Source: Gemmatimonadota bacterium (lineage in GTDB: Bacteria; Gemmatimonadota; Gemmatimonadetes; Longimicrobiales; Gaopeijiaceae). Taken from it: DNA of 64,000 bases. The stretch spans positions 2,501 through 66,500 of the forward strand of contig JAJCZZ010000059.1 of NCBI GenBank assembly GCA_029262115.1, written 5' to 3'. Numbering within the stretch: the stretch's first letter is position 1; every line of letters starts with the position of its first letter. A program made the translations under genes and the position numbers. The notes below the pieces were generated by a model, which was not told the DNA's origin, searched no databases, and worked only from the letters and a program-made list of their open reading frames with translations. Shown in pieces: positions 1,256 through 8,513 of the stretch.

Positions 1256-1329
1256 TGCGCCTGCTGGGACTCGAACCCAGGACCCTCGGCTTAGAAGGCC
1301 GATGCTCTATCCAGCTGAGCTACAGGCGC
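1256..1329 (-). tRNA. tRNA-Arg (anticodon TCT)
   Basis: A 74-base cloverleaf on the minus strand. The acceptor stem GCGCCTG (1323-1329) pairs with CAGGCGC (1257-1263), with discriminator A at 1256. The anticodon stem TCGGC/GCCGA encloses loop CTTCTAA, giving anticodon TCT (complement of 1293-1295). The T-arm CTGGG-TTCGAGT-CCCAG is canonical. CCA is not encoded. It reads AGA codons. Confidence 0.95.
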
Positions 1330-1426: not shown

Positions 1427-1888
1427 CTAACCAGATATCCGAAAGACCACCGTGCCCTCTTCCTGGCCCGTACAGTCATCCGCGACCAATCGACCGTCGA
1501 CCCGATCCCCATAGCCTACCGATCGAGCGTCGATTCGGATTTCCCCGGGACACTCGGACCCGTACTTGAGCGCGAGTCGGAGCCGGTCGTCCTTCAGTTC
1601 TCCACCTCCATTCGCGGTAACCGACAACGCCGGGATGGCGAGTGACGCGATCAGTTCGGACGGCGGACCGTAGATCCGGAGCGTGACGGGGAGGGATGTC
1701 CCCTGGATGGCGACCGTCCCGTCGTAGTTCCGCTCCACCACCCGTCGGTCGGTTGGACTCGAGACCGGTTCGATCTCACCGATCTCCGGAGCGCCGGATC
1801 CGCAGCCGACCGCCAGGAACAGAGTCGACAGAATGGCGGCACGGCAGGGGAAGTTCAACGGGTAGCTCCAGGCACGATAGTTCATCAT
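1427..1888 (-). CDS. small predicted lipoprotein, unknown function
   Basis: A 153-residue protein. The start is placed at the ATG at 1888 (a second ATG follows at once) because a lipoprotein signal begins there and ends with the lipobox AVGC near residue 27. The mature domain, from about residue 55 onward, alternates hydrophobic and polar residues and reads like a small all-beta domain (strands around VAIQGTSLPVTLRIYG and EGTVVFRISG). No family was recognised. It stands alone between tRNA-Arg and the integrase region on the same strand as tRNA-Arg. No strong Shine-Dalgarno is visible. Confidence 0.6.
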   Translation of the reverse strand: MMNYRAWSYPLNFPCRAAILSTLFLAVGCGSGAPEIGEIEPVSSPTDRRVVERNYDGTVAIQGTSLPVTLRIYGPPSELIASLAIPALSVTANGGGELKDDRLRLALKYGSECPGEIRIDARSVGYGDRVDGRLVADDCTGQEEGTVVFRISG

Positions 1889-2271
1889 GAGGGAATGGCC
1901 CTGCAGATGACGTGCCACGGGGCGGCCGGATCGACTGCGGGCGTCGCTTCGCGACGCTCCTCGTCCGTTCGGGGGTCGACATACGGAGTCGCCCACCACT
2001 TCTGCCCCGAACGCCGAACCTACGGTTCTGGTCCGCGATTCCTCGCGGACCGCGGCCTTTTCAGGGCCGCTGAATCCGGCCGCCCCCTGCTCCCAAAGCA
2101 TGAGAATGCGCCCTTAGCCGGGTTCACTCCGATTCACGGCGCACACCCTCTCTCCTTGCCGTACCTGGGGTTTAGGCCCAATACTGTACCGTCGTTGAGC
2201 TTCACTCTGGTTCTCTGCGTCTTGTGCAAGGTGCGTGCAATGCGGGGAACCCCTCCCGTGGAGGGACGGGC
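1889..2271. other. gap without a gene; holds the left attachment remnant and the integrase upstream region
   Basis: About 380 bases without a supportable gene. Both-strand reading frames through it are shadows. It contains the tRNA-Pro-like remnant at 2076-2100 and, presumably, the integrase promoter, although no convincing -35/-10 pair was found. Confidence 0.6.
2076..2100 (-). repeat. left attachment-site remnant matching the tRNA-Pro anticodon arm
   Basis: Bases 2076-2100 match 5402-5426 of the intact tRNA-Pro at 23 of 25 positions; the last 18 (ccccctgctcccaaagca) are identical. This is the 3' side and anticodon loop of the tRNA. The match stops at 2100, where the tRNA would continue into its 5' half, as expected of one end of an integrated element. 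It lies 171 bases before the integrase start. Confidence 0.7.
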
Positions 2272-3564
2272 ATGGCTCGGCTTACGAAGCGGATGGTGGA
2301 CGCGGCAACGGCGGAAGGGTCAGGGTGGACCTGGCTCGGCGATGACGAGGTGCCGGGCTTCGGCGCGCTCGTCTACCCGAGCGGGACGAAGACCTTCGCG
2401 CTCCGGTACCGGACCCAGGCGGGACGGCAGCGGATGCTCAAGCTGGGGCACTTCGGCGAGCTGACGGTTCAGCACGCACGCGACATCGCCCGGAGGGAGA
2501 AGGTCCAGGTACTGGAGGGCAAGGATCCTCGGGCCGAGCGAGAGCGAGAGGCGGTGGGCATCCGCACGGTTGCGGATCTCATGACCCGCTGGATCGAGGA
2601 CTACGCGAAGGCACACCGGAAGGCGTGGGCCGAGGACCAGCGCCGGGTGGACTCCCGGATCCGCCCGGCCCTCGGCCGCCTACACCTGGAGGATCTTACG
2701 CCGGACCGGCTGGCGAGCTGGCACCGGGCCCTCGGCCGGGAGGCGCCGGTGGAGGCCAACCGCTGCCTGGAGACCCTCCGGGCGGCCTGGCGGTGGGCGC
2801 ATCGCCAAGGGCTTCTGGCCGAGGGCCTCACTGACCCTACCGGGAAGGTGAGGCGCTTCCGGGAGCGGAGCCGGGACCGCTGGCTTCGACGGGAGGAGCT
2901 GGAGCGTCTCATGGCCGCGACGGGCAAGCAGGAGGATCCCTACGTTCGAGCTGCGATTCCGCTCCTCCTTCTCACGGGGCTCCGCAAGAGCGAGCTGTTC
3001 TCCGCCCGCTGGGAACACGTGGAGCTGGAGCGGGGCGAGATCCGCCTACCGGAAACGAAGAGCGGGGAGGCTCAGGTCCGCCTCCTCCCCCCGCAGGCGG
3101 TTGAGATCCTCCGGGAGCTGCCCCGCTACAAGGAAAGCCCGTTCGTCTTCCCCTCTCCCCAGGATCCCAGGCGGCACCCCCGTCGCGACTTCAAGCCGCA
3201 GTGGAAGGCGATCCGGGCGGAGTCCGAGCTGAAGGATGTGACGCTCCACGACCTGCGGCGCACGGCCGGATCCTTCATGGCTCAGGCGGGCGTACCGCTC
3301 CAGGTGATCCAGCATGTCCTCGGGCACTCGCACCCGGGGGTCACAAAGCTCTACGCCCGGCTGGCGTCGGAGAACGAGCGGGAGGCGCTGGAGACGCTTG
3401 CCGGGGAACTGAGCGGAATCCTTGGCAACGGAAATGGGGTCAAGCGAAGGACCAAGAGCCCTCGCAGCCTCGAGGATCGCCTGGAGTCCCTCCTGGCGAC
3501 GAACGAACCGGCTGAGACCCTGGCGGCGCGGCTGCGGGCGCTGGCCTCGGAGCTGGAGGGATAG
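2272..3564 (+). CDS. P4-type tyrosine recombinase (site-specific integrase)
   Basis: A 430-residue integrase. The first 80 or so residues form the arm-DNA-binding domain typical of P4-like integrases (pattern ending in KLGHFGELTVQHAR); a core-binding SAM-like domain follows at about 100-200 and the catalytic domain at about 205-375. The active-site set is complete: Arg238 (TGLRKSEL), His326 and Arg329 (LHDLRR), His352 (LGHSH) and Tyr361. The start at 2272 has a strong site ggaggg just upstream, while an upstream in-frame ATG does not. It should cut and join DNA at tRNA-Pro, given the att repeats. A basic, low-complexity C-terminal tail (about 385-430) extends beyond the usual domain. The next gene begins 4 bases after its stop. 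Confidence 0.93.
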   Translation: MARLTKRMVDAATAEGSGWTWLGDDEVPGFGALVYPSGTKTFALRYRTQAGRQRMLKLGHFGELTVQHARDIARREKVQVLEGKDPRAEREREAVGIRTVADLMTRWIEDYAKAHRKAWAEDQRRVDSRIRPALGRLHLEDLTPDRLASWHRALGREAPVEANRCLETLRAAWRWAHRQGLLAEGLTDPTGKVRRFRERSRDRWLRREELERLMAATGKQEDPYVRAAIPLLLLTGLRKSELFSARWEHVELERGEIRLPETKSGEAQVRLLPPQAVEILRELPRYKESPFVFPSPQDPRRHPRRDFKPQWKAIRAESELKDVTLHDLRRTAGSFMAQAGVPLQVIQHVLGHSHPGVTKLYARLASENEREALETLAGELSGILGNGNGVKRRTKSPRSLEDRLESLLATNEPAETLAARLRALASELEG

Positions 3565-3568
3565 CCCG

Positions 3569-4291
3569 ATGGAGCGCCGAGAGGATGATTTCAGCGAGGG
3601 CCGTCTACGGGATCTCCTGGAGAAGGCGAAGCCGTTCCGCCGAAACCTCACGCCAACCGAAGCCGAGCGACGTGCTTTGGACGTTCTCCGAAGGGCGGCC
3701 GTTGAGCCCAGCCTTTCCTTGCAGGCGAAGGCCCGACTGGCGGCGCTCGAAATCGTCCGGCAGTCGTGGACCACCTACGTGGCCACCTCCGGAATGATCT
3801 CGACCGGCCTGGACCGGGAGACCTTCATGGGACTGAAGCCGGGCGAGCCGATACCCATCTCTCCGGAGACCGCCGAAGGATTACCGATCGCTCGCGGCAC
3901 ATCCGACGGTTTGGACCGGCTGCAAGAGTGGATGCGGTCGAACCTGCGCGAGGCGGAAGCGCTTGAGGCCGAAACGGAGCGAAGAGGGATCTTTCTGGAC
4001 CCGGAGCGACTGGCCAGGAGCAAGGTTCAGACCGGCGAGAGGGGTGCCAATCGGATGCTCCTCACCGAGCACGTCAGGGCTCTCCTCCGTGAGCAATTCC
4101 CCGGCTGGGAGGACGGCACCCCCTTCCCCGGAGCCAACACCTCCGAGTTGCGGGGTGCCCTCAGGGCGAAGCTCATGGCTCTCGTCGGATCCACGCAGGC
4201 GGGCGTTGATTCCGGCGCCGTGCTACTCGACCTGTGGAAGACATCGACGCCCGGCGAGGCGGCCCGCTCTACAACATCATCAACAACCTGA
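3569..4291 (+). CDS. integrase-coupled protein of unknown family, probably frameshifted near its 3' end
   Basis: A 240-residue charged, helical, soluble protein (no signal peptide or membrane segment). It starts 4 bases after the integrase stop, with ggaggg inside the end of int acting as its ribosome site, so the two are very likely translationally coupled. No domain was recognised. The last 20 or so codons lose the strong G/C third-position bias. In the neighbouring frame, from about 4233 to a stop at 4306-4308, the bias returns (20 of 24 codons) and the peptide ends plausibly in GPLYNIINNLKNPGR. I infer a small indel near 4225-4233 that altered the native C-terminus. It may be an accessory DNA-binding protein of the element, but nothing proves this. 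Confidence 0.7.
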   Translation: MERREDDFSEGRLRDLLEKAKPFRRNLTPTEAERRALDVLRRAAVEPSLSLQAKARLAALEIVRQSWTTYVATSGMISTGLDRETFMGLKPGEPIPISPETAEGLPIARGTSDGLDRLQEWMRSNLREAEALEAETERRGIFLDPERLARSKVQTGERGANRMLLTEHVRALLREQFPGWEDGTPFPGANTSELRGALRAKLMALVGSTQAGVDSGAVLLDLWKTSTPGEAARSTTSSTT

Positions 4292-4337
4292 AGAATCCGG
4301 GGCGTTGACCACTCAGCGCCACCTGGCCGCGCCGAAT

Positions 4338-4664
4338 TCAATCCGCACCTCCCTCCCGGGACGTTCCGTCCTGTCGCGACTTCGAATTAGGGACTGCCTC
4401 TTGCGCCGCTCCATCAAGGTCCACGGAGAGTGGAGGCACTTCCTCCGCAGATGACTCCCCCCACAGCATTTCCCAAGACGGGGAGTCCGTGATCAGTCGC
4501 TCCGTCGGACGAGAAAACGCCGAAGGGCCATTCGTAGACATGTTCTCCAGGCGATAGAATTCGAGCGGGAGCACTCCTTCAGGGGCAGCGGACGAGGTGC
4601 ATCCACTCAGGATCATCGTCACCACGACGAAGAACCCCAACGGGAACCTGGTTCTCGCACCCAT
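4338..4664 (-). CDS. small lipoprotein, possibly a truncated PrcB-like protein
   Basis: A 108-residue protein with a clear lipoprotein signal (hydrophobic residues 8-20, lipobox LSGC at 19-22) and a good ribosome site (aggggga) upstream of the ATG at 4664. Residues about 57-72 (RLITDSPSWEMLW) resemble the start of the small C-terminal domain found in PrcB-type secreted proteins, but the usual following strands and Gly-rich motif are missing and the final 30 residues are polar and repetitive. It may be truncated or frameshifted. The upstream membrane-protein gene overlaps its start if read through its own frameshift. Confidence 0.5.
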   Translation of the reverse strand: MGARTRFPLGFFVVVTMILSGCTSSAAPEGVLPLEFYRLENMSTNGPSAFSRPTERLITDSPSWEMLWGESSAEEVPPLSVDLDGAAQEAVPNSKSRQDGTSREGGAD

Positions 4665-5319
4665 AGGTCATCTCCCCCTAATTCGCGGCCGCTGCGTGAT
4701 TGACGAGTCCATTTCCAGAACCGCTCCAGGCGAGCGGCGTGGCCGTCGACATCAGCCGGTTCAAGGCGGGGCAGCACGATCTCTTCCACGCCCCTGACGG
4801 CCTCATCCACCATCTTCCCGAATGGATCCTCCTCGGGATCGTCCCTCGCTCGGTAAACAACCTCCTCAGCCCTCTCCAGGCGGGCAAGGTCACTAGCCCT
4901 GGGCACTCTACCTGCTCGACGCTCCGCGTCCCGCCGGATCCGAACCAAAGGACTTCCGCCTCAATCACCTCCAGTTCCGACCAGGCATCGATGACGAGTC
5001 GTAGCCTTCGCTGGTAGACGACTTCGTCGGTCCGGGGATCCATCAAAGGGCCGTTCCGCTCCTCAGCTTGTCCGAGTTCCGCGAACGCTGTCGTTGCCTC
5101 TCCGGGAGGAATCAACGGGCTCCGGGCTGATCGTAGCTGGTTCCTGAAGTGGTAGACCTTCCTGAGAAGCCGACGACTCAAGTCATGTTCGTCCCGCCCT
5201 CGTAACTGACGCCGCCACTCGCTGACCCCCTTCCAGGCCGCATAGGCGCCCACGACGGCCGAAGCCGTGAGGACGGCGTTGAGCAGCACCGTGACGACCT
5301 GGACTATGTCGACGTCCAT
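4619..5319 (-). pseudogene. membrane-anchored protein of unknown family, apparently frameshifted
   Basis: The gene starts at the ATG at 5319 (residues 1-12 MDVDIVQVVTVL). It has one N-terminal membrane helix (about residues 8-30), then a basic, helical cytosolic part (WRRQLRGRDEHDLSRRLLRKVYHF) that resembles small single-helix proteins common in bacteria, for which I know no function. Read straight through, the frame continues to 4678, but after about 4950 its sequence turns Trp/Pro/Ser-rich. From there the adjacent frame carries a convincing acidic helical peptide (DLARLERAEEVVYRARDD) that runs to 4619. A one-frame slip near 4930-4955 therefore probably splits the gene. A sequencing error is the alternative. 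Confidence 0.55.
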
Positions 5320-5381
5320 TCCCGCGAGAACTCCCGTGCAATCTTGGTGCAATGCCGGGAATCACGATTCCCACTCCGCAA

Positions 5382-5455
5382 TCGGGGCGGCCGGATTCGA
5401 ACCGGCGACCCCCTGCTCCCAAAGCAGGTGCGCTACCGAGCTGCGCCACGCCCCG
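5382..5455 (-). tRNA. tRNA-Pro (anticodon TGG), integration target
   Basis: A 74-base cloverleaf on the minus strand. The acceptor CGGGGCG (5449-5455) pairs with CGCCCCG (5383-5389), with discriminator A at 5382. The anticodon stem CCTGC/GCAGG encloses loop TTTGGGA with anticodon TGG (complement of 5419-5421). The T-arm GCCGG-TTCGAAT-CCGGC is perfect. CCA is not encoded. Its anticodon loop region is the common core of three repeats (2089-2100, 5415-5426, 8104-8115), and its whole 5' half is duplicated at 8104-8146. Confidence 0.96.
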
Positions 5456-5560
5456 TGTGTGTACCTTATTCCCTCCGAATCATACCTTGTCTGTCTGCAC
5501 GCTGGTAGGTCCGAACCACCGTTTTCGTCGGCTTTCAGCGATCGAGGACGGCTACGCGGT

Positions 5561-5679
5561 GAGCCACCGAGAGGGCCGAGGCGCGACCCAGGTCTTAACG
5601 ACCCGGGGCCGGACGGATGCGGGCACCGCTCGAAGCGTGGTCCCCTCGAATGGCCGAGACACTTTCGTAACACTACACC
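5561..5679 (-). repeat. MITE-like intergenic repeat, copy B (partial)
   Basis: On the minus strand this reads as a gapped match to 124-266, including an exact 24-base block (acgaaagtgtctcggccattcgag), ccgggtcgtt-like and ccctctcggtggctc blocks. One terminal arm (5661-5679) is kept; the other is not recognisable. Like copy A it sits just 3' of a minus-strand gene (stop of the TauE gene at 5689). Confidence 0.5.
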
Positions 5680-5688
5680 AGCTTAAGC

Positions 5689-6549
5689 TTAGGCTTGTGC
5701 GACTCTCCACAACATGAGCATGCCAACCAGAGCGAACACGACTCCGAGCGTCCTCTCCAGGGTCTCCTGCGGGAGTCGGCTCGCGACGATCGGGCCGAGC
5801 TGTCCTCCTACGATGACCCCGGGGACCGTGAAAAGACACACATTGAGTACGGTCGGGAACGCACCTCCTCCGATCTGGGAAAAGCGCCACAGATGGATCG
5901 TCGCGGCCGAAAGCGCGGTGACCGCGACAACGACGACGCCCGTGCCCACCGCCACTCGACTCGGGACCCGACACCGCCGCAGCAGGAAGTACCCATTGAG
6001 TTCCCCGAGCCCTGTCGAAACCATACCCATGAACAGGGCGCCGAGGCCGGCGAGGAGTTGGCCCTCGGTCCGGTTGCAAACGGTATAGGAGATCTCTTCA
6101 CCTTCGGCCGTCACAAGAGACGTCTCCCCAACGCCAGCTCCGAAGTCCGCCTCCACCCCCTGGTCCAGCCGCTCCAGCTCCTCATGGTCGGGTGCGCGCA
6201 GGAAGGTGAGTGCGACGGCAATCAGCCCCATGCCGAGAACCGCTTCCAGCGCCTCCGTGCGCACGACTCCGGTCAGAAAGCTCCCGATGACCGCTGCCGG
6301 GACGGTGACCATCAGCAACGACCCCGCCAGTCCATAGTCGATGAGCTTTCGGCGTACGTAGGCGGTCACCCCGCTCGCGAATCCGAAGACCTCGGTCACG
6401 AGCCCGATTCCGATCGCCACCTCGGCGGGGAGCCCGAGCAAGAGCAGGAAGATCGGCGCGAAGAAGGTCGCGCCCTCGACGCCCGACGCCATGGCGACCG
6501 TCGCCACGCCGATGGAAACGGGAAGCATATACCAAAATTGAAGAGTCAT
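5689..6549 (-). CDS. TauE/SafE family membrane transporter (sulfite/organosulfur exporter type)
   Basis: A 286-residue integral membrane protein with about eight hydrophobic helices and the two-half layout of the TauE/SafE family (the N-terminal half carries GVEGATFFAPIFLLLLGLP, the C-terminal half STGLGELNGYFLLRR). Family members export sulfite, sulfoacetate or related anions from the cytoplasm. The substrate here is unknown. A roughly 35-residue acidic cytosolic loop lies between the halves (about 130-165). It stands alone on its strand in the tRNA-Pro-flanked segment, so it is likely cargo. The ATG at 6549 starts directly with the first helix. Confidence 0.85.
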   Translation of the reverse strand: MTLQFWYMLPVSIGVATVAMASGVEGATFFAPIFLLLLGLPAEVAIGIGLVTEVFGFASGVTAYVRRKLIDYGLAGSLLMVTVPAAVIGSFLTGVVRTEALEAVLGMGLIAVALTFLRAPDHEELERLDQGVEADFGAGVGETSLVTAEGEEISYTVCNRTEGQLLAGLGALFMGMVSTGLGELNGYFLLRRCRVPSRVAVGTGVVVVAVTALSAATIHLWRFSQIGGGAFPTVLNVCLFTVPGVIVGGQLGPIVASRLPQETLERTLGVVFALVGMLMLWRVAQA

Positions 6550-6758
6550 GGAGACGGTCCCTGGAGTGGTGCTACGGCGTCTCGATGTTGAACCGCCTCG
6601 GTGTGCGCCGGGGGCAGCCTGGTCCGTAGGCCCGTGCGCTGGCGCTCTCTGGCCTGAGAGAATCGAGGCCGCGCCGGTGTCTCTCGCGTGTGTCGCAAGC
6701 CCAAGCGCGAACGCTGCAAGAGCCGCTGCCTACGCCCGGGGCGGTCGGAGCCACCGGG

Positions 6759-7619
6759 TCATGGCTGCCCACCGAGCAGGTCCCTCATGGTCGCGACGGC
6801 CGACCGGAGGAAGGTGTCGGTCTTGGCGGTCCGCTCCGCCCCGTCGCCCGCATCGAGGACGTGCTGGCGAGTAAGAACCGCACCAAACCAGCCCTCGGAG
6901 TTCCACTGGCCGCCGCCCGGTAGTCGCGGAAGCAGGGTCACGGCTGGTCTCGGGTGGGCGTTCACATACCAATACGGCTGATCGATGAGGGCATCGCCCG
7001 GACTGAACCCGACACCCACACTCCTCCCGGATTCGGCCCCGAGTGTGGGGTCCAGAAGGATCAGCGTGGCCAGGTCGAAGTGGTGCGGCCAGCAGCGCAC
7101 CGGAGTCGCGTGTTCCTCGCTTCCGTGAACGCGTGCCAAGGTCTCGGCCGCATAGGCGAACCACGTCCCCAACTCGTCGAGAGCAGGCCTGATGTCATTC
7201 GAGAACGGTCTCCCATGCGCTACCGGATGCTCCGGCAGGTCGTAGTCGGGGCGAACCAGGTGTACACGCGCATCGCCACCGAACACCCGCCCTACCTGGG
7301 ACTCCGCCCACGCGTAGAGGGCTTCGACATCTCCAGAGGCGAACGTCGCTTCGCACGTCGTCTCTCCCTGTTCGACAAGCGTCATTGCCAATCCCGGAGA
7401 CAGCCCCAGCCTGAGCCCACGCCCTTCGGACAGGAAGCGAGAGCCTCGCGCGTCCCAGGTCAAGCTTCGATGACTGTCGTCGTCCCTCGGACCCACGAAG
7501 GTCGCTCCAAAAGCGGCCAGCGGCTGGACCGCGTGATGTAGCTGCAGTCGCGCCTCCCTGAGATCGGCCGATGGGACTGCCCCGAGATGACTGGCCGAGC
7601 CGCTGCTCATGTGGACCAT
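6759..7619 (-). CDS. conserved protein of unknown function, about 286 residues
   Basis: A soluble protein without signal or membrane helices. It begins with a short Ser/Gly stretch, then LHHAVQPLAAFG and a DDSH motif (about 45-48) followed by LTWD; later come RCWPHHFDLATLI (about 180) and a Gly/Pro-rich segment with SVGVGFSPGD and PYWYVNAHP. I have seen this arrangement in uncharacterised bacterial proteins but can name no activity; the His/Asp-rich motifs might bind a metal. The ATG at 7619 is chosen because coding character is lost further upstream; ATG 7610 is an alternative. It lies in the segment between the two tRNA-Pro repeats. Confidence 0.7.
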   Translation of the reverse strand: MVHMSSGSASHLGAVPSADLREARLQLHHAVQPLAAFGATFVGPRDDDSHRSLTWDARGSRFLSEGRGLRLGLSPGLAMTLVEQGETTCEATFASGDVEALYAWAESQVGRVFGGDARVHLVRPDYDLPEHPVAHGRPFSNDIRPALDELGTWFAYAAETLARVHGSEEHATPVRCWPHHFDLATLILLDPTLGAESGRSVGVGFSPGDALIDQPYWYVNAHPRPAVTLLPRLPGGGQWNSEGWFGAVLTRQHVLDAGDGAERTAKTDTFLRSAVATMRDLLGGQP

Positions 7620-8103
7620 GACCCGCCAGGGAAATCGAGGGGGTGCCGGGCCAGCGGGAGCACCCCGAGGGGGACGTGTCCCCCGGCCAAGGGGAGCGCA
7701 GCGAAGGCCTCCGCACCATTCCCGCCGTCCACTACGCCCGTGCGTGTCGCCACAGGGCGAAACGCGGTCAGCCCGCTCATGCCTGGTGAGGCCATCAAGG
7801 TCGTTCCTTGCGTCCCATGTCGATCGTGGCGGCTCGTTGCACGTCGCGGGCTCCCGCGAAAGGCCAGGGGCGGTCTCCCCCGAGTCGATACGGTGCCCGT
7901 TGGAGATAGAGCCGTAGGGCGGACTTCGGGTTCCAGGTTGGCCCGAATCGTCGGGGCGCCTTCGACAGGCGCCGCGCCGAGAGCCGCCGTATCGGTCGCC
8001 CGTCCACGCAGAGGCCTTCGAGAACGTACGTGGAACGCGCACACCTGGACCATGGCTTCCCCGGCGGACCCGCGCCAACGCCCAATGATGACGCCAGTCG
8101 GTG
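7620..8103. other. gap without an intact gene; possible gene debris
   Basis: About 480 bases with no frame that has a signal, start site and convincing codon bias. One minus-strand frame over about 7610-7738 reads VVDGGNG...VPLGVLPLARH, faintly like the nucleotide-binding loop of diacylglycerol/YegS-type lipid kinases. This would fit a degraded remnant, but the match is weak. No tRNA, hairpin or promoter was recognised. Confidence 0.3.
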
Positions 8104-8146
8104 GCTCCCAAAGCAGGTGCGCTACCGAGCTGCGCCACGCCCCGTG
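8104..8146 (-). repeat. duplicated 5' half of tRNA-Pro
   Basis: Bases 8104-8146 are identical to 5415-5457: the anticodon loop, D-arm, 5' acceptor strand and 3 bases upstream of the tRNA. The T-arm and 3' acceptor strand are absent, so this is not a functional tRNA. It marks the right-hand limit of the accessory region; housekeeping genes start at 8196. Confidence 0.85.
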
Positions 8147-8195: not shown

Positions 8196-8513
8196 TCAGG
8201 CCTCGGGTTCCTCGTCCAGACGCCGCAGATACTCGAACGGATACAGCCCCGTCGAGTGGCCGTCGCTCCACATGAACTGGAGGGCGTAGCGGCCAATGTA
8301 GTGGATCGCGGTGGGGTACACGTTTTCGGATACCATCTCCGGGGTCAGCGTCCGGACGCCTGTCATTTCGTCGACGCAGCCGGCGCAGGGACACATCAGG
8401 CGAAGACGGCGCGGAAGAAATTCGGACTCGTGACCGTCCTCCCACAGGATGCGCAGGCGGGACCCGTCGGCCGTCGGGCCGATGTCGCTGGGTGTATGTC
8501 GTGGCGCGGCCAT
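8196..8513 (-). CDS. DUF971 (GBBH-like N-terminal domain) protein
   Basis: A 105-residue protein consisting of one domain of the DUF971 / gamma-butyrobetaine hydroxylase N-terminal type. It shows the usual order: LRILWEDGHESEF, then RLMCPCAGC with three Cys, and near the end ALQFMWSDGHSTGLYPFEYLR. The family binds a metal through Cys/His and also occurs fused to Mrp-type iron-sulfur carriers, so an iron-sulfur role is often proposed. Its ATG overlaps the rdgB stop (TGATG), so the two are coupled. It is the last gene of the long minus-strand run. Confidence 0.88.
   Translation of the reverse strand: MAAPRHTPSDIGPTADGSRLRILWEDGHESEFLPRRLRLMCPCAGCVDEMTGVRTLTPEMVSENVYPTAIHYIGRYALQFMWSDGHSTGLYPFEYLRRLDEEPEA

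Follow-up and report, generated by a model that had tools for sequence, protein, structure and literature searches.

Overall, after analyzing the tRNA genes, the integrase and the flanking genes of a 64,000-nucleotide stretch of DNA (the window), we conclude, with a probability of about 0.85, that a small integrase island (2089-5415) occupies the anticodon core of the host tRNA-Pro gene and, less certainly, that a separate insertion (5458-8103) lies on the 5′ side of the same gene. The sole tRNA-Pro(TGG) gene found appears to be a composite, assembled from the two incomers; the other tRNA-Pro genes found in the 95.7%-complete assembly have the anticodons CGG and GGG. The working proline-tRNA gene therefore appears to depend on foreign DNA, with the cell's own halves displaced to either side. 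The features of the locus are as follows.

1256-1329, minus strand: tRNA-Arg(TCT) (ARAGORN), host flank; downstream of tRNA-Pro in relatives too
1427-1897, minus strand: lipoprotein-like gene, host flank; homologues between tRNA-Pro and tRNA-Arg in two relatives (L069, L070) and also on L129
1918-2086, minus strand: structured palindromic repeat ("tRNA-tail unit"), its closing stem repeating the tRNA-Pro 3′ end in inverted and in direct orientation
2083-2100, minus strand: displaced, truncated 3′ half of the host tRNA-Pro (nt 30-47, core included; attR); 18/18 match to 5409-5426
2224-2243, plus strand: arm-type sites on the integrase side, GTGCAA-N5-GTGCAATGC (motif search)
2272-3564, plus strand: complete P4-type tyrosine integrase (PF13356, 4e-16; PF00589, 8e-30)
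3569-4291, plus strand: ORF of 240 aa, 5 bp after the integrase gene; no known family; C-terminal frame possibly shifted
4338-4664, minus strand: small lipoprotein-like ORF of 108 aa (ORF list and domain search)
4678-5352, minus strand: ORF with an N-terminal hydrophobic stretch, probably frameshifted and continuing in 4619-4948, judging by the reading frames
5336-5355, plus strand: arm-type sites of the far arm, GTGCAA-N5-GTGCAATGC (motif search)
5382-5455, minus strand: intact, rebuilt tRNA-Pro(TGG), core at 5415-5426 (attL)
5458-8103, no strand assigned: segment A, integrase-less, flanked by the intact tRNA and the displaced 5′ half
5689-6549, minus strand: TauE/SafE-family permease gene in segment A (PF01925, 6e-27)
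6759-7718, minus strand: uncharacterised ORF in segment A
8104-8146, minus strand: displaced 5′ half of the host tRNA-Pro plus core; 43/43 match to 5415-5457
8196-8513, minus strand: DUF971/GBBH-like_N gene (PF06155, 3e-23), host flank; ahead of tRNA-Pro in relatives

The first-pass annotation of this DNA had proposed searching related genomes for an empty tRNA-Pro locus, and such loci exist: three family relatives (L068, L069, L070) carry an unbroken tRNA-Pro(TGG), that is, an uninterrupted attB, between the same neighbours and with no element at the locus. Their gene order, all on one strand, is the DUF971-like gene, tRNA-Pro(TGG), then tRNA-Arg(TCT) and tRNA-His, and in L069 and L070 the homologue of the 1427-1897 gene sits between tRNA-Pro and tRNA-Arg. 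In the window, the displaced 5′ half directly follows the DUF971-like gene, where the relatives have tRNA-Pro, and the lipoprotein-like gene and tRNA-Arg come after the displaced 3′ half. The flank genes are thus in the relatives' order, so both flanks are host DNA in ancestral order, and therefore all the DNA between 8104 and 2100 is either inserted or rebuilt.

Three occurrences of the 12-mer GCTCCCAAAGCA are present in the 64 kb, compared with 0.16 expected, when up to one mismatch is allowed; its third site belongs to 8104-8146, a perfect 43-base copy of the tRNA 5′ half. Upstream of the 5′ half of the working TGG gene is segment 5458-8103; downstream of its 3′ half is island sequence. The first-pass annotation had delimited a single element from a remnant near the integrase to the intact tRNA; the island itself stands at 2089-5415, but this extent is incomplete, having missed the third tRNA copy and segment 5458-8103. 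As that segment and the displaced 5′ half lie beyond the tRNA, the disturbance extends over 2083-8146, a wider locus than the element first described.

The integrase island and its relatives

The intact tRNA at the far end and the displaced 3′ fragment have the same orientation, with the fragment on the correct side and the integrase between them, as in a tRNA-gene genomic island. The integrase is complete, as first annotated (430 aa), with an Arm-DNA-bind_3 N-terminus and a Phage_integrase catalytic domain, and its R238, H326, H352 and Y361 are invariant in alignment A1, in agreement with a P4-type tyrosine integrase. The previously given spacing of 171 bases from remnant to integrase is right for the ATG at 2272, and the size of about 3.3 kb agrees with the 3,326 bp measured from core to core. 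As first reported, no excisionase or transfer genes were recognised among the ORFs of the element, and conjugation and virion genes, by which an ICE or a prophage would be known, had no family matches among the ORFs of 2089-5415. The 240-aa ORF has no Pfam or PHROG match and no relatives in viral contigs. Apparent frameshifts were seen in two island ORFs (4619-5352 and about 4258-4291), which suggests decay or sequence error.

The pattern GTGCAA-N5-GTGCAATGC has two matches only in the 64 kb, just inside each end of the island, where 0.07 would be expected with two mismatches allowed. The gap is five bases (a pattern with a six-base gap gave no match), and the core of the intact tRNA is 60-79 bp away from the far arm sites. 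Repeats before the integrase gene, examined in 26 cases, are spaced by 10-13 bp, mostly 11, and exceed shuffled controls in most cases, although the single-arm test of the window is not significant. These arm sites define the predicted attP, and they indicate how little an integrase island needs: an integrase, a core and two pairs of arm sites.

Used as a single-protein query against genome contigs, the integrase found no relatives, and an alignment of four integrases retrieved 80 loci from public genomes. Of the 79 loci with enough upstream sequence, 43 have an antisense tRNA 3′ half, cut at the anticodon, upstream of the integrase gene, compared with 0 of 229 control regions; the median distance between half and gene is 180 bp. 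Among the 30 closest loci, 28 have the cut 3′ half ahead of the integrase gene. The target tRNAs include Gly, Arg, Lys, Pro, Thr, Ala, Met, Asn and Val, each isotype being the best library match and approximate for distant cases. Two complete islands share the geometry of the window island: one of 2,533 bp at tRNA-Thr in an uncultured Lamprocystis (L145) and one of 4,494 bp at tRNA-Lys in a member of the Chromatiaceae (L147). In genome G029, the arm motif is present on both sides (the P arm on L087; L131:647, adjoining an intact tRNA-Val). A second proposed check, for the same integrase beside tRNA-Pro elsewhere, was borne out by G060, a genome of the same order but another family, in which a 45%-identical integrase occupies the same tRNA-Pro locus beside a 3′ half that is complete (46 nt); tRNA-Arg and tRNA-His come next. 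The islands of L145, L147 and G060 (contig C9) belong to the same integrase clade as the window island and share its orientation, core-to-integrase distance and 11-bp-spaced repeats before the integrase gene. In contrast, L145 and L147 differ in target tRNA and cargo, G060:C9 has the same target but other cargo, and all three carry full-length 3′ fragments where the window island has a truncated one; a further homologue (L088) also has a full-length fragment. Islands of this kind are therefore widespread, and the one in the window is small without being the smallest observed: its description as an unusually small, minimal unit did not hold, because the homologous island of L145 measures 2.53 kb. 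Separately, locus L128 (G115:C6) has a tandem pair of integrase genes with a third partial match alongside.

Integration at the anticodon core, bounded by the remnant and the intact tRNA, as originally claimed, is borne out by the arm sites at both ends, the empty loci of relatives and the geometry of homologues. The remnant was reported as 25 bases with 23 matches at 2076-2100. It is present as described, but its tRNA part is just 2083-2100 (18 contiguous exact bases), whereas 2076-2082 belong to the neighbouring palindromic repeat, the closing stem of which copies the tRNA 3′ end. One might accordingly regard the remnant as a chance or repeat-derived match with no element behind it, a reading that those repeat bases favor. 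However, we rejected it as having next to no probability, since it is contradicted by 18 exact bases in the expected place, arm sites at each end and the same geometry in 43 of 79 relatives.

The anatomy of the island is supported by the sequence layout and by relatives, and from these we infer the recombination reaction itself. A circular attP would consist of the P arm, the anticodon core, the tRNA-Pro 3′ half and the P′ arm. The integrase would join this attP to the anticodon core of the host tRNA-Pro(TGG) and split the gene, after which the island-borne 3′ half would restore the tRNA gene next to the far arm, with the host 3′ half pushed to the integrase side. Of the host 3′ half, nt 30-47 remain, and the rest is replaced by the repeat whose stem ends in the tRNA 3′ end. 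A deletion at a shared GGGG, fusing the 3′ half to repeat 1918-2086, would best account for this damage. Because the host 3′ half is cut short, excision would restore no working gene; loss of the island would leave no functional tRNA-Pro(TGG) and should be lethal, and the island is probably trapped in place. Repeated insertion at a single anticodon core could thus take over an essential tRNA gene and bar the exit of the island.

The segment on the 5′ side of the tRNA gene

With less certainty, segment 5458-8103 would have inserted independently at the same anticodon core, entering from the 5′ side: it would have supplied a 5′ half and an upstream region of its own, and the host 5′ half would have stayed behind at 8104-8146. 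This event seems to be younger than the island insertion, as suggested by a host 5′ half that is unchanged over 43 bases and a host 3′ half that is badly damaged. A different tyrosine integrase is encoded upstream of tRNA-Pro in G006 and G042, its gene starting a few hundred bases away; it therefore seems that the tRNA-Pro gene does receive insertions from the 5′ side.

Neither an integrase domain nor integrase remains were found in 5458-8103, and no arm sites are recognisable there; the 5′ fragment at 8104-8146 is consequently not separated from the tRNA by an integrase, as it would be in a 5′-fragment island. The segment might instead be ordinary chromosomal DNA, brought in when the tRNA 5′ half served for homologous or illegitimate recombination, or the product of an assembly join. 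The source assembly is fragmented (110 contigs), and a join may lie within the 43-bp repeat. This explanation concerns 5458-8103 only and is compatible with the island reading of 2089-5415. It agrees with the failure to find an integrase or arm sites and with the chromosomal position of one gene of the segment elsewhere in the family: the 6759-7718 ORF has matches in 21 of 117 family genomes, its own included (E<=1e-15), and in G007, G011 and G042 the homologue and the tRNA-Pro(TGG) locus are on different contigs. However, the anticodon core marks the exact end of the segment, the TauE gene is patchily distributed (matches in 5 of 117 family genomes, its own included, at E<=1e-30), and relatives have 5′-side integrases at the same tRNA. 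We consider a chromosomal or assembly origin a serious but somewhat doubtful possibility.

Alternatively, 2089-8115 could be one tRNA-dependent element of 6.0 kb with a 12-bp core, in which the host tRNA was not rebuilt and a complete replacement tRNA-Pro is carried inside. The two displaced remnants do share exactly the 12 bp GCTCCCAAAGCA, a complete tRNA-Pro does lie between them, and phages of such a kind are known (PMC10865867). Notwithstanding, the intact tRNA is formed at the 5415-5426 core with the far arm sites adjoining it, 60-79 bp away and not beside 8104; the 3′ half is carried in the usual manner by the homologues L145, L147, G060 and G029; and the two remnants have decayed very unequally. 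A single element of this kind is thus improbable, and we retain the reading of an island plus a separate 5′-side insertion.

Several other observations concern this region. On L072 and L129, tRNA-Pro(TGG) has a tyrosine integrase of a second family upstream, and a repeat of the GGCACAG type lies between the integrase gene and the tRNA. More tRNA-Pro 3′ halves are present in G007, G115 and G272 (L077, L079, L127, L137, L138), one of them about 2 kb from tRNA-Arg(TCT); insertions thus appear to recur at this locus. The window also holds an interspersed repeat at 124-286 (about 163 bp, with 19-bp terminal inverted repeats in this first copy), of which a second copy at 5552-5683 is inverted and partial.

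Structured repeats behind tRNA genes

Repeat 1918-2086 folds strongly (DNA fold z = -7.1) and a paralogue of it follows tRNA-Pro(GGG) elsewhere in this genome. Compensatory changes were found in 7 of 10 pairs of one helix of these tRNA-tail units, and the closing stem copies the 3′ end of the local tRNA, whether Pro TGG, Pro GGG or Cys. A covariance model identified nine places with E<1e-5 in 59 genomes, six of which are units used to build the model or their tandem partners; independent support comes from G014 (two units), G020 and the tRNA-Cys unit of G005. Of the nine, the window copy follows the displaced 3′ half, and each of the other eight comes immediately after a tRNA gene, either Pro(GGG) or Cys; one further place at 8e-6 has no tRNA nearby. 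Weaker matches (E 1e-5 to 0.01) were treated as chance, about seven of them having been scanned with ARAGORN and found to have no tRNA nearby. Rfam gave no match for the repeat, and nothing relevant on such repeats was found in the open-access papers searched, which is weak evidence of novelty. A reading as an attC site was dropped, since RYYYAAC/GTTRRRY boxes were not seen by eye.

We tentatively suggest, at slightly less than even odds, that 1918-2086 belongs to an undescribed family of structured elements that follow tRNA genes in this part of the Gemmatimonadota, which may be a tRNA-homing mobile structure or a regulator of tRNA 3′-end maturation. If real, tRNA-tail units would represent a novel structured element associated with tRNA genes. 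Structured units with an inverted and a direct copy of the tRNA 3′ end, some in tandem, were seen in the window and at L242 (G000:C106), L059, L057, L256, L257, L276 and L112. Short palindromic units of 45-75 bp also occur behind tRNA-Pro or tRNA-Ser (L065, L058, L043, L042, L052); each ends in the last ~15 nt of the tRNA, and L065 and L058 have a tandem pair.

Comparison with known systems

The position of the core is not unusual. Anticodon-centred cores are present in 2083 of the 3919 islands of the Islander database, in which tandem arrays and 5′-fragment islands are known as well (PMC4383910); the Islander search filter requires the displaced fragment to reach an end of the tRNA gene. The window shares with Islander tRNA islands an intact tRNA at one end, a displaced 3′ fragment at the other and a tyrosine integrase between them (PMC4383910). 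It differs from them in that the displaced fragment is truncated and that a 5′ fragment lies on the other side of the tRNA, beyond a segment lacking an integrase. As in the tRNA-dependent lysogeny of mycobacteriophages, the cell would rely on the tRNA of an incomer, and a short core is common to the remnants; unlike in those phages, the tRNA is rebuilt at the attachment junction rather than carried separately (PMC10865867).
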